Assembly: GCF_018609725.1 (NCBI RefSeq) | Contig: NZ_JAHENT010000109.1 | Location: 1 to 32,975, forward strand | Direction of reading: 5' to 3' | Length of the DNA: 32,975 bases | From: Methanohalobium sp. | GTDB taxonomy: Archaea; Halobacteriota; Methanosarcinia; Methanosarcinales; Methanosarcinaceae | Shown: positions 24,444 through 31,167 of the stretch, one piece after another | How the letters are laid out: the number at the start of each line of letters is the position of its first letter | Numbering within the stretch: the first letter of the stretch is position 1 | Notes under the pieces: model-generated | What the model was told of the DNA's origin: nothing | Databases searched by the model: none | Seen by the model: the letters and a program-made list of their open reading frames with translations, nothing else | Position numbers and translations under genes: made by a program

Positions 24444-24457
24444 TTCACAATCGTGAA
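24444..24457. promoter_or_regulatory. Operator copy 1 (one mismatch) upstream of the DASS gene
   Basis: TTCACAATCGTGAA, the palindrome TTCACAATTGTGAA with one base changed, about 100 bases before the DASS start. The rest of the 264-base gap 24343-24606 shows no convincing gene. Confidence 0.6.
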
Positions 24458-25022: not shown

Positions 25023-25040
25023 AATTCACAATTGTGAATT
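25023..25040. promoter_or_regulatory. Operator copy 2: divergent promoter of regulator and tusA
   Basis: AATTCACAATTGTGAATT is an 18-base perfect palindrome. On the minus strand a TATA box (CTTTATATAATAATA, about 25050-25064) lies 25 bases before it, so the palindrome covers the regulator's expected start site. The same AT-rich block (ATTATATAAAGG, 25058-25069) can serve as TATA on the plus strand for tusA. Confidence 0.7.
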
Positions 25041-27637: not shown

Positions 27638-28546
27638 TTAATCCAATCTATTCAAAAAACGGATATCAAAAATATCTTTCTCATCCAGATTCTTTTTTAT
27701 ATAACCAAGGTTTTGTAAAATAGGAACAAACTCCATGGTTGATTTTATGTAACACTTTGTAATTTTTGCTGAATATTTAGGAGACATTTTTAATATCTCA
27801 TATACAAAATCCGGAGTTACAATACCTACATTATCAGAAATTATTTGAGCTGCATGTTCAGGTTTTTCTTTAATAAATTTACAGGCTTTATCGTGTTTTT
27901 CAACAAATGTAAATACAAGCTCTGGATAACTATCAATCAATTCTTGTTTTGCAACAATCCCATAACTGGGATTATTTTTCCATAAATTATCAGGTGTAAT
28001 TACAGTCTTTGCTTCACAGAACCTTTTAGCCACAACTGCAAGAGAGGGAGTACCTATTGCAACATGAATATCACCATCAGCCATGCTTTCGGGTATCATA
28101 TCAGCCCATTCATAATTCTTAATGGTTATTTCATTTTCAAATTCTAAATTTCTTAGATATTCCCGAATAATTACATCATGAATAGACCCTTTTGGTGGGC
28201 AGGCAATTGTTAATCCTTTAAATTGATTTAAGAATGGTCTATATTCACCATTAAATTCATCCAGTGATTTATATCCGTGAACTGCAATCATTACTGTGCC
28301 TTCTACATGACCTCCAGCAATACATTTAATTGACAATCCCTTGTCTATCCCTTTCATAGCAGGTGGTAAACCGATATATCCCAAATCAATCTCGCCTTTT
28401 TCAAATGCTTCAACTATTGCAGGACCACCACCAAAAAGGTTCCAGTTTACTTTAATATTTGATTTTTCAAGCCAATCAGTACTCATTAAAACAAATGACG
28501 AATGGTACATGGTTGACAGATGACCGATATTCAGGGTTTTGTTCAT
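27638..28546 (-). CDS. SsuA/NrtA-like solute-binding-fold protein without signal peptide
   Basis: Periplasmic-binding-protein fold of the NMT1/SsuA/TauA kind: LNIGHLSTMYHSS, GGGPAIVEAFEKGEIDLGYIG, then CIAGGHVEGTVMIAVHGY and a C-terminal helical region. It starts directly with the first strand: there is no signal peptide or lipobox, so it should stay in the cytoplasm, and no permease or ATPase gene is nearby. The GGAGGTT of its ribosome site encodes the last Gly-Gly of the preceding MoaD-like gene, and its ATG (28546) is 7 bases after that stop. The tight coupling suggests it works with the sulfur carrier, perhaps as a ligand-binding partner or enzyme; this is inference. GTG 28564 is a less likely start. 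Confidence 0.7.
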   Translation of the reverse strand: MNKTLNIGHLSTMYHSSFVLMSTDWLEKSNIKVNWNLFGGGPAIVEAFEKGEIDLGYIGLPPAMKGIDKGLSIKCIAGGHVEGTVMIAVHGYKSLDEFNGEYRPFLNQFKGLTIACPPKGSIHDVIIREYLRNLEFENEITIKNYEWADMIPESMADGDIHVAIGTPSLAVVAKRFCEAKTVITPDNLWKNNPSYGIVAKQELIDSYPELVFTFVEKHDKACKFIKEKPEHAAQIISDNVGIVTPDFVYEILKMSPKYSAKITKCYIKSTMEFVPILQNLGYIKKNLDEKDIFDIRFLNRLD

Positions 28547-28553
28547 TAAGTTT

Positions 28554-28829
28554 TTAACCTCCACTTATTGCTGGAAGTATAGATATCTCATCCGAATCTC
28601 TGATTTTAGTTTTTAGGCCTTTTAAGTGTTTAACATCTTCACCGTTTACATAAACATTGATAAACGTTCGAAGTTCACCATTTTGGAATAAACGGTTTTT
28701 TAAATCTTTACCAAATATTTCTATTAACTTATTAAACAATTCACTTAACTCAATGTTATCTGCACTAATAATTGTTGATCTTGTTTTTGTAACATCATTC
28801 AATACTGAAAAAAATTTTATTTCTACCAT
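28554..28829 (-). CDS. MoaD/ThiS-family sulfur carrier protein
   Basis: Ubiquitin-fold protein of 91 residues (VEIKFFSVLNDVTKTRS at the start, VYVNGEDVKHLKG in the middle) ending in ISGG. The C-terminal Gly-Gly is adenylated by an E1-like enzyme and turned into thiocarboxylate to carry sulfur. The MoeB/ThiF gene diverges from it across a shared regulatory region, a natural partner. Whether it serves molybdopterin, thiamine, cysteine or methionine synthesis cannot be read; the sulfate-reduction context favours amino acid sulfur. It is the first gene of a two-gene minus-strand operon. A TATA box (ATTATATATTTAAAA, near 28855-28870) precedes it. Confidence 0.82.
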   Translation of the reverse strand: MVEIKFFSVLNDVTKTRSTIISADNIELSELFNKLIEIFGKDLKNRLFQNGELRTFINVYVNGEDVKHLKGLKTKIRDSDEISILPAISGG

Positions 28830-28927
28830 TTAATCCCTTATAATTTGTCTATTTTAAATATATAATATCAAAATCAGTGTTTAATTTAAACAAGATAATA
28901 ATAGTAAATAAATCTAAATCCATTAAT

Positions 28928-28995
28928 CTTGGTAAGTAGGCAAATTTTACCAAGATATAATAACAAAAGAAAAGTTCAATTATTGCCGCAATAAT
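28928..28995. promoter_or_regulatory. Divergent moaD/moeB regulatory region with two dyads
   Basis: CTTGGTAA (28928-28935) and TTACCAAG (28947-28954) are perfect 8-base arms; inside lies GGCAAATTTTACC (28939-28951), like the sites before the sulfite reductase. A second dyad, ATTATTG (28979-28985) with CAATAAT (28989-28995), follows. TATA boxes for the two divergent genes lie on either side, near 28860 and 29030. Confidence 0.5.
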
Positions 28996-29057
28996 AACAT
29001 ATTTGATATAATATTCGTTTTACTCAAACATATATAATAAACTCTAATGTGACCAGA

Positions 29058-29873
29058 ATGATTGATAAATTTACAGAAGAACAAATAAAGCGATATTCAA
29101 GACACATCATAATGGAAGAAGTAGGAGGAGAAGGTCAACAGAAATTATTAAATTCCAAAGTCCTTTGTATAGGTGCAGGAGGGCTTGGGTCTCCCATAAT
29201 ACAGTATTTGGCGGCAGCTGGAGTAGGTACGATTGGTATTGTTGATGATGATGTAGTAGATTTAAGTAATCTACATAGACAGGTGATACATGGGAATAAT
29301 CTGGGTATATCAAAAGTAGAATCTTCTAAAGAATTTGTTAATAAACTTAATCCAGATGTAGATGTTATAACTTATAATAAAAGATTAAATCCCAATAATA
29401 TCTGTGATATTATAAAAGAATACGATATCATTGTAGATGGGTCTGACAATTTTTCAACCAGATATCTTGTAAATGATGCCTGTGTACTTGCCAACAAACC
29501 TCTATCACATGGTAGTATACTTCGTTTTGAAGGGCAGGTAACAACATTTGTACCCCATGAAGGACCTTGCTACAGATGTATTTTTGAATATGCTCCACCC
29601 TCGGATATGGTTCCAAGTTGCCAGGAAGCTGGAGTTATTGGTGTTTTACCGGGTATAATCGGTGTTATACAGGGTACTGAAGTAATTAAATATCTTTTAG
29701 GAATTGGCAATTTACTCATTGAACGTATGATATATTATAGTGCGTTAGATATGTCATTTGATGAGATTAAAATCCGTAAAAATCCATCATGCCCTGTATG
29801 CAGCCAAAATCCAGAAATCATATCAATAAAACATGAAAACTACATTGAAAACCAACAGTGTTACATTGGCTAA
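29058..29873 (+). CDS. MoeB/ThiF/HesA-family adenylyltransferase
   Basis: E1-like enzyme that adenylates the C-terminal Gly of a MoaD/ThiS carrier. Rossmann loop GAGGLGS (39-45), the DxxxLSNLHRQ motif (DLSNLHRQ), zinc cysteines C171-x2-C174 and C245-x2-C248, and the conserved Cys of SCQEAGVIGVLPGIIG (C188) are intact; no rhodanese domain is attached, 271 residues. I use ATG 29058 rather than GTG 29049: the TATA box ACATATATAATAA (29028-29040) places the start of transcription at about 29058, so the mRNA is probably leaderless. The divergent MoaD-like protein is the likely substrate. Confidence 0.9.
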   Translation: MIDKFTEEQIKRYSRHIIMEEVGGEGQQKLLNSKVLCIGAGGLGSPIIQYLAAAGVGTIGIVDDDVVDLSNLHRQVIHGNNLGISKVESSKEFVNKLNPDVDVITYNKRLNPNNICDIIKEYDIIVDGSDNFSTRYLVNDACVLANKPLSHGSILRFEGQVTTFVPHEGPCYRCIFEYAPPSDMVPSCQEAGVIGVLPGIIGVIQGTEVIKYLLGIGNLLIERMIYYSALDMSFDEIKIRKNPSCPVCSQNPEIISIKHENYIENQQCYIG

Positions 29874-29899
29874 AATGTAAAACTTGAAATGTTAATCAT

Positions 29900-30048
29900 T
29901 ATAATTCGGCTCTGTAGAAACCCTATAGAAATCGCCGTCAATCAGCAAATACTAACAGATTTTAATCAATATTAAAAAGTACATCTAAAAAGATTACTAA
30001 TTTCCTTAATTACCCAAATATCAAGGATTTCTACAAAGCCTATAATTC
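29900..30048. mobile_element. 133-bp IS6-like MITE with 8-bp target duplication
   Basis: Element 29908-30040 begins GGCTCTGTAGAAA and ends TTTCTACAAAGCC (one mismatch as inverted repeats), and is flanked on both sides by TATAATTC (29900-29907 and 30041-30048). Eight-base duplications and GGNTCTGT-type ends match the IS6 family. The interior has no coding capacity, so it moved with a transposase supplied elsewhere. Confidence 0.8.
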
Positions 30049-30075
30049 CATGATTTTTAAATCAATAAATAAAAA

Positions 30076-30324
30076 TTAGCCTAATAATGTCTTTAATAGT
30101 TGCATTAATCCAAAGGTTATGACTATGAACACTATCCCTGTGACAGTTAGGATGAATATGTTTCTATATACGATATTTTTATCTGAACCTGCCTTAATTC
30201 CTAATCCACAGCATCCTCCTTCTGTACTGCAAGCATTGCAATCTGTGGAGTTGTCACAATTTGGGTCTTTGGTAGTGGTTTTATTGTGGGTTTTTAAGGG
30301 AAATGTATGTGTATCATATAACAT
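30076..30324 (-). CDS. Small Cys-rich single-pass membrane protein
   Basis: 82 residues: a hydrophilic N-terminal part with a cysteine cluster (CDNSTDCNACSTEGGCCGLG) and one C-terminal membrane helix (NIFILTVTGIVFIVITFGLM). Unrecognised. The cluster could bind metal. ATG 30324 has an excellent ribosome site (AGGAGATGAG) that overlaps the stop of the 39-residue gene before it, so both are one operon. The TTG at 30345 is not needed. Confidence 0.6.
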   Translation of the reverse strand: MLYDTHTFPLKTHNKTTTKDPNCDNSTDCNACSTEGGCCGLGIKAGSDKNIVYRNIFILTVTGIVFIVITFGLMQLLKTLLG

Positions 30325-30328
30325 ATAC

Positions 30329-30448
30329 TCATCTCCTGTTAACAATCAATATAACTGACAAAATAGCACCAATTATAATCAATGTCCATAATAACATTCC
30401 AAATAGCATAGACCCATCTGCAGGGCAATAATATCCATATTCCAACAT
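30329..30448 (-). CDS. 39-residue single-pass membrane protein
   Basis: ATG 30448 opens MLEYGYYCPADGSMLF followed by one strong membrane helix (about residues 17-36) and ends VNRR, with TGA at 30331-30329, four bases before the next ATG. AAGGATTGG serves as ribosome site. Size and layout (one helix, basic tail) recall CcmD-like helpers of cytochrome c maturation, and ccmF genes are close, but no sequence motif proves it. Confidence 0.55.
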   Translation of the reverse strand: MLEYGYYCPADGSMLFGMLLWTLIIIGAILSVILIVNRR

Positions 30449-30476
30449 TTTAACCAATCCTTAAAGTTATTTTTAA

Positions 30477-30546
30477 GGCTAAATTGATAATCGAACTCAC
30501 ATATTTCGATTCGCAGTCGGAAGAATAACCACTCTGTCACTCAGCC
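30477..30546 (-). tRNA. Degenerate tRNA-Cys-like sequence (pseudo-tRNA or unusual tRNA)
   Basis: On the minus strand 70 bases fold as a cloverleaf: acceptor stem GGCTGAG with TTTAGCC (7 of 7 pairs, two or more G-U), TG at 8-9, D-loop AGTGGTTA with the conserved A, GG and A, anticodon arm TCCGA-CTGCGAA-TCGAA (one C-A mismatch), T-loop TTCGATT and T as the base after the acceptor. GTGACAGAGTGGTTATTC and CGACTGCGAATC resemble tRNA-Cys of methanogens (…GACTGCAGATC…), and U73 is the tRNA-Cys discriminator. But the D-stem and two T-stem pairs are broken, and the triplet at the anticodon position reads GCG, not GCA. It lies just behind an operator and TATA box and before the two small membrane genes, so it could also be a transcribed leader. 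Confidence 0.45.
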
Positions 30547-30557
30547 TTCCTCATCAA

Positions 30558-30571
30558 TTCACAATTGTGAA
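30558..30571. promoter_or_regulatory. Operator copy 3, before the tRNA-like sequence
   Basis: TTCACAATTGTGAA, perfect 14-base palindrome. On the minus strand a TATA box (CCTATATATACCC, about 30598-30610) would start transcription near 30578, so the palindrome sits just after the start site and 11 bases before the tRNA-like sequence. Confidence 0.65.
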
Positions 30572-30716
30572 CTAATATAGATGTATGATTTTTGGGTATA
30601 TATAGGTTATGACATGAACAAAATTTGCCTTATTGTTCCTATTTTTATATTCTAAAAAATACCTACCAAAAAATGAATAATATTAAACCTGTATTATTAT
30701 ATAGATAAGTGGTTAT

Positions 30717-31100
30717 ATGTTCTATAAATTAACCAAATTTGTTGATAATTTATTGCCTAAATACCCGAACTCTGAATATATACAGGTTATCGTTTACTGT
30801 ACAAAAGCTAATTTATCATCAGGTGATATATCTAAAAAAATGTGTGATATATCTAAAAAATCCAGTAATAAAGCACCTGAAAAAAATTTAGATATTTGGA
30901 ATTATAATAACAATCGGTATAAACAATTGTTAAAATGTGATGATTTTTCGGAAATGGAGGAAATATTCGAAGAAGCTGAATATGGTGGAATCCCAGCAAG
31001 CTCTATATGCAATACTGATAACGATATCATTTTAATTGCAATCGGACCTGACAAAAAAGAAAGATTATCTGAATTAACAACCAACCTTGAAAATATTTGA
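30717..31100 (+). CDS. Divergent Pth2-fold protein lacking the usual catalytic residues
   Basis: 127 residues. It lines up along its length with peptidyl-tRNA hydrolase 2: first strand YIQVIVYCTKANLSSGDISK against the K/R-TDL-x-MGKGK region, a W in the middle (LDIWNYN), LLKCDDFSEMEEIFEEAEYGG against the helix of Pth2, ICNTDND at the place of DAGRTQI, and IAIGPDKKERL against GIGPG. The lysine-rich GKGK, the AQ-x-x-HA helix and the DAG-x-TQ loop that carry catalysis are not conserved, so it may bind tRNA or RNA instead of hydrolysing peptidyl-tRNA. TATTATTATATAG (30690-30702) as TATA makes a leaderless start at 30717 likely. It diverges from the tRNA-like sequence. An unrelated function remains possible. 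Confidence 0.5.
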   Translation: MFYKLTKFVDNLLPKYPNSEYIQVIVYCTKANLSSGDISKKMCDISKKSSNKAPEKNLDIWNYNNNRYKQLLKCDDFSEMEEIFEEAEYGGIPASSICNTDNDIILIAIGPDKKERLSELTTNLENI

Positions 31101-31152: not shown

Positions 31153-31167
31153 ATTCACAATTGTGAT
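31153..31167. promoter_or_regulatory. Operator copy 4 at the ccmF promoter
   Basis: ATTCACAATTGTGAT contains the perfect 12-base core TCACAATTGTGA (31155-31166). The TATA box ATATTTAAATATAAC (31131-31145) lies one standard distance before it, so the palindrome covers the expected start site; AAGGAATG then serves as ribosome site for ATG 31194. Confidence 0.65.

Follow-up and report, generated by a model that had tools for sequence, protein, structure and literature searches.

Archaeal tRNA genes are usually regarded as constitutive, and members of the Methanosarcinaceae make cysteine both free and on tRNA. Molecules of tRNA-Cys are marked by a set of identity elements, namely the GCA anticodon, G37, the G1-C72 pair and U73, of which G1-C72 and U73 are identity elements for SepRS (PMC9499178). 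The sequence described here derives from such a tRNA-Cys, as used in the SepRS/SepCysS and CysRS pathways of Methanosarcina, but it lacks the GCA anticodon and G37. It belongs with what we call type A tRNA-Cys. The type B tRNA-Cys of archaeal rRNA operons has the same anticodon and amino acid as that class, but is of a different sequence class, has no operator and lies between the 23S and 5S genes inside the rRNA operon of a sister species (no rRNA operon was seen among the tRNA loci of the genome studied here). Like other tRNA pseudogenes, our sequence is homologous to a functional tRNA along its full length, has broken stems and a wrong anticodon, and scores below threshold; unlike them, it keeps a perfect operator and a TATA box and stands in the leader of a small operon, as the head of what was once a tRNA operon.

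The window, that is, the whole stretch of 32,975 nucleotides that was analysed, is contig C109 of a 2.09-Mb assembly that is 97% complete. On its minus strand, positions 30476..30546 hold a degenerate copy of a type A tRNA-Cys, which reads GGCTGAGTGACAGAGTGGTTATTCTTCCGACTGCGAATCGAAATATGTGAGTTCGATTATCAATTTAGCCT from 30546 to 30476. The preliminary description had set the interval at 30477-30546; a tRNA-Cys-like sequence is indeed present there, but a border at 30477 omits U73 and the true end is 30476. The cloverleaf-sized likeness to tRNA-Cys that it had proposed is real: R1, a covariance model that draws on 13 distinct tRNA-Cys genes from this family of archaea, matches the element at 54.9 bits (E 2e-12) over 71/71 positions and without indels. 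In this genome, R1 gives the intact tRNA-Cys 95.2 bits and the best non-Cys tRNA 48.2 bits. The element thus ranks second, below the true tRNA-Cys and above every other tRNA, and its match is far beyond chance and specific to tRNA-Cys. In fact, it is related to type A tRNA-Cys from end to end and is nearer to it than to other tRNAs: 54/71 positions are identical to the type A gene of its own genome, versus 42 over 77 aligned columns for the rRNA-linked type B gene of the sister species. A covariance search with relaxed cutoffs, as the preliminary description had proposed, finds the element over its full length with Rfam RF00005 at 16.4 bits, below the cutoff of 29 bits, and the element is one of five such below-cutoff matches across the whole assembly. 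ARAGORN calls no tRNA in the window, the element included. A functional tRNA would be expected to reach at least 29 bits with RF00005 and to form a cloverleaf with intact stems; here 5/20 pairs are broken.

The acceptor stem is fully paired (7/7, two of them G-U) and the D- and T-stems are broken (1/3 and 3/5 pairs left), all as first described, and the anticodon stem keeps 4/5 pairs. The GCG triplet noted at the anticodon position is also there, A36 having changed to G, and next to it G37 has become A. The signature bases AGAGTGG in the D-loop and TTCGATT in the T-loop are kept, as had been seen. Of the tRNA-Cys identity elements, G1-C72 and U73 are thus retained, with GCG and A37 in place of GCA and G37. 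Relative to a consensus ancestor, the element has undergone 14 changes, 13 of which go from G/C to A/T. When the same number of changes was placed at random in a decay simulation, 68-77% of the sequences kept at least the element's total of 15/20 pairs (P 0.68-0.77). Total pairing and the AT-biased spectrum are therefore those of unconstrained decay, and the acceptor stem is mildly above chance: it stayed fully paired in 8-18% of simulated sequences (P about 0.08-0.18), and in 3% when the number of changes falling in it was held at five (P about 0.03), a comparison chosen post hoc among four stems. Changes at family-invariant columns numbered 6 against 8.9 expected (P 0.07). The pattern has the look of recent decay, any constraint on the acceptor stem being a hint at most. 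Fold prediction gave no cloverleaf (z -1.1), and a special fold was considered and rejected (z about -1).

What has not decayed is the control region. The TATA box and the operator lie directly upstream of the element, where the preliminary description had placed them, both on the minus strand. The operator (TTCACAATTGTGAA, 30558..30571) is an exact copy, 11 nt ahead of the tRNA-like sequence, and the TATA box (TATATATA, 30597..30604) was recognised from its sequence and by aligning it with the intact tRNA-Cys promoter; transcription would start at the operator edge. The element thus has what we take to define an operator-controlled unit, a TATA box, a palindrome of the TTCACAATTGTGAA type and a tRNA-Cys whose first base is no more than about 40 nt from the palindrome end. 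The intact tRNA-Cys(GCA) of the same genome (C136:26422) has the identical operator 8 nt upstream and a similarly spaced TATA box, and is followed by a gene for a radical SAM protein. Promoter, operator and tRNA of the element are all homologous to those of this intact copy, which shows that the whole unit was copied.

The operator is rare in the assembly. Exact copies number three in 2.09 Mb: at the element, at the intact tRNA-Cys and at the TusA/sulfite-reductase genes, where it lies at 25025..25038 (plus strand) upstream of the TusA gene, sulfite reductase coming next. A reversed-pattern control in the same assembly gave no site at up to one mismatch. Copies with one mismatch lie on the plus strand of the window upstream of a CcmF_C-like gene (31154..31167) and in a DASS-transporter/HTH region (24444..24457), and elsewhere at Thi4, whose region also holds a CysE gene, at a gene for cysteine desulfurase that is divergent from an HTH gene, and at a COG1900-like gene.

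Across the family, the operator stands just upstream of 41/46 distinct type A tRNA-Cys copies, often as two palindromes (within 100 nt, at most two mismatches), in a sample that is non-random in that several copies were chosen by similarity to the window element. The same search upstream of about 56 other tRNA genes, which were not chosen on the operator, found none. Genes for SepCysS (TIGR02539) and O-acetylhomoserine sulfhydrylase (TIGR01326) lie immediately after type A tRNA-Cys, as do others that on inspection resemble those for homoserine acetyltransferase, Thi4 and TusA; the tRNA is often first in operons for SepCysS (in several genomes), homocysteine synthase or thiazole synthase, a coherent cysteine/sulfur theme. 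When GTDB-type genomes were scanned for the exact pattern, the operator came up together with tRNA-Cys in Methanosarcina, Methanohalophilus and a single record labelled Methanomicrobiaceae (UBA207). The latter, outside the Methanosarcinaceae, combines the operator with a type A tRNA-Cys and, behind it, a reading frame like that of SepCysS (L223 6757-6853), possibly through transfer or a mislabelled bin. The tRNA-Cys under operator control in the sister species (L039 260-1564) has two mismatches in its acceptor stem and is directly followed by transposase-like ORFs, which hold the place of the radical SAM gene. With caution, given a limited literature search, we regard a second tRNA-Cys class under a cysteine/sulfur operator throughout the Methanosarcinaceae as new: no report of operator control of tRNA-Cys was found in the literature searched, the key M. 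mazei isoacceptor study lying outside that search. This study of the M. mazei tRNA-Cys isoacceptors, by Hauenstein and Perona in 2008 (JBC 283:22007; cited in PMC8762117), is the most likely place for earlier isoacceptor data.

A likely regulator can be proposed from its sequence and position. The HTH gene at C136:31026-31367 encodes 114 aa with a weak HTH_3 match, and close orthologs (85 bits or more) occur in most family genomes. The gene often adjoins the type A tRNA-Cys or lies within a few kb of it, in several genera (e.g. G021, G030, G031, G033, G036 and G037). All 30 of the HTH loci read (L225-L254) encode a C-terminal CxxC followed by another Cys, and 23/30 have an operator with at most one mismatch within 250 nt upstream. 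This small protein with its Cys cluster is likely to be the regulator that acts at the operator and is a candidate for a sulfur or Fe-S responsive one, DNA binding and signal being putative.

Behind the element are two small ORFs on the minus strand. The first, at 30329..30448, encodes a 39-aa membrane peptide (MLEYGYYCPADG...) without a Pfam match and has AAGGAT about 9 nt before its ATG. The second, at 30076..30324, encodes an 82-aa Cys-rich small membrane protein with a paralog on another contig (G000:C25, 48% identity). Its family occurs in most Methanosarcinaceae, and the usual copy, including that on C25, sits just behind tRNA-Ser(GCU). The window copy is thus a paralog that has come to sit behind a tRNA-Cys promoter. 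No operator was found at the tRNA-Ser-linked copies, and no tRNA-like sequence upstream of the copies without a nearby tRNA. The family consists of Cys-rich single-span membrane proteins of about 80 aa, directly downstream of tRNA-Ser(GCU) in 25/29 loci read (L111-L139; G000:C25:2822-3172).

Divergent from the unit, at 30717..31100 on the plus strand, is a PTH2-like gene, a peptidyl-tRNA hydrolase 2 paralog (Pfam PF01981, 35.5 bits). It is probably outside the tRNA-like unit; a link between the two was considered and rejected, as the sister species keeps the gene without the tRNA-like sequence. Such paralogs exist beside the standard Pth2, one here and three in the sister (G001:C1:1457731, 1160119 and 1284937; 87, 60 and 45% identity). 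The start of the PTH2-like promoter region, 30623-30663 on the plus strand (ATTTGCCTTATT..CTATTTTTATAT), is closely similar to the sequence that precedes the intact tRNA-Cys (L030 1428-1468), on the strand opposite to the tRNA-like unit. No further Methanohalobium locus with a PTH2-like protein came up in a scan of genome contigs. A BLASTN search of the sister species (G001) for an orthologous tRNA-like sequence matched its tRNA-Cys alone, and by synteny with this one species 27646-30641 is missing there as a block. These ~3 kb hold MoaD/ThiS-like, ThiF/MoeB-like and NMT1-like genes, the small membrane operon and the tRNA-like sequence, and the sister has a clean junction in their place (L140 7655/7657). 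At this locus it also lacks the sulfite-reductase region.

The element is not alone in its decay. A further seven type A copies, from seven genomes, are degenerate too, with pairs broken at different places: G1 is changed in two, the T-stem in others, and the acceptor 3' end is destroyed in G083. All seven keep the operator at no more than two mismatches. The G083 copy (L074) is the closest parallel, with two perfect operators, a wrecked tRNA-Cys on which ARAGORN makes no call, and then a homocysteine-synthase-type gene. No preserved sub-structure common to the degenerate copies was found, which argues against a conserved mimic.

That the element is a regulated tRNA mimic, as the preliminary description had suggested among other readings, or a decoy is thus very unlikely. 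Such a leader would bind CysRS, SepRS or sensors of uncharged tRNA and so control the small membrane-protein operon. The operator context would suit it, as would the retention of G1-C72 and U73, by which SepRS recognises its tRNA (PMC9499178), but the other identity elements, the GCA anticodon and G37, are gone and total stem retention is that of random decay. As a further point against a mimic, we know of no archaeal mechanism of this type. Somewhat less improbable, if still unlikely, is a remnant of function in RNA processing: the acceptor stem and T-loop would make up a minihelix, still a substrate for RNase P and tRNase Z, whose cuts would release the downstream mRNA from its leader, the RNA itself no longer being a tRNA. 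The paired acceptor stem, unbroken by its five changes, the intact T-loop and the 3/5 pairs of the T-stem could be read in this way, and such processing probably does occur at intact type A tRNA-Cys genes, which lie 14-130 nt before the ORFs behind them. However, the T-stem of the element is mismatched at both closing pairs, its predicted fold is not that of a tRNA, and in L074 the acceptor stem is destroyed while operator and operon remain.

Hardly credible, in our view, is an odd but functional tRNA, be it a tRNA-Cys variant or a tRNA-Arg(GCG), that is used under sulfur stress. An intact promoter and operator and an exact length without indels speak for it; five broken pairs, among them two of the three in the D-stem, a score below the Rfam cutoff and the silence of ARAGORN speak against it. 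A tRNA-Arg(GCG) function was rejected, because a normal tRNA-Arg(GCG) is present in this genome, as is a normal tRNA-Cys(GCA). The special tRNA for sulfur stress that had been proposed thus fits the intact paralogs and their sulfur/cysteine regulon, but not the element, which is without the GCA anticodon, G37 and five stem pairs.

The element is very probably a pseudogene of an operator-controlled tRNA-Cys, and the small operon in whose leader it lies presumably still relies on the switch. This agrees with the preliminary description in so far as it spoke of an operator-controlled and decaying tRNA-Cys: it is a copy of an operator-controlled class that is intact elsewhere in the genome and in the family. 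It is the intact homologs that are informative: there, the operator palindrome that separates the TATA box from tRNA-Cys would be bound, probably, by the small HTH protein with its C-terminal Cys cluster. In step with the supply of sulfur or cysteine, this protein would then switch the tRNA-Cys together with the operons that follow (SepCysS, homocysteine synthase, thiazole synthase), both regulator and signal being putative. At our locus, a type A tRNA-Cys gene with TATA box and TTCACAATTGTGAA would have been copied in front of the two small membrane-protein ORFs, a direction that, like the time of the duplication, we infer. AT-biased mutation would then have eroded the tRNA part, because C136 has an intact copy and relatives have copies in rRNA operons. 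Promoter and operator would have been retained, presumably since the ORFs downstream are still driven by them within a cysteine/sulfur regulon.

More generally, we envision, as a tentative view that falls just short of being probable, that in the Methanosarcinaceae a second tRNA-Cys class is regulated through an operator, along with SepCysS and homocysteine/thiazole synthesis, by what is probably an HTH protein that senses Fe-S or thiols, and that such operons repeatedly lose the tRNA and keep the switch, the remnant perhaps staying on as a processing signal. Taken by itself, the element is of modest interest; what merits following is the class of regulated tRNA-Cys to which it leads. One isoacceptor class of one tRNA has a dedicated operator in common with sulfur-assimilation genes, so that switching of the tRNA-dependent cysteine route by sulfur supply becomes testable. 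The element and its seven parallels also illustrate a simple route by which genes may acquire a regulated promoter: they come to sit behind a regulated tRNA, and the tRNA then decays.
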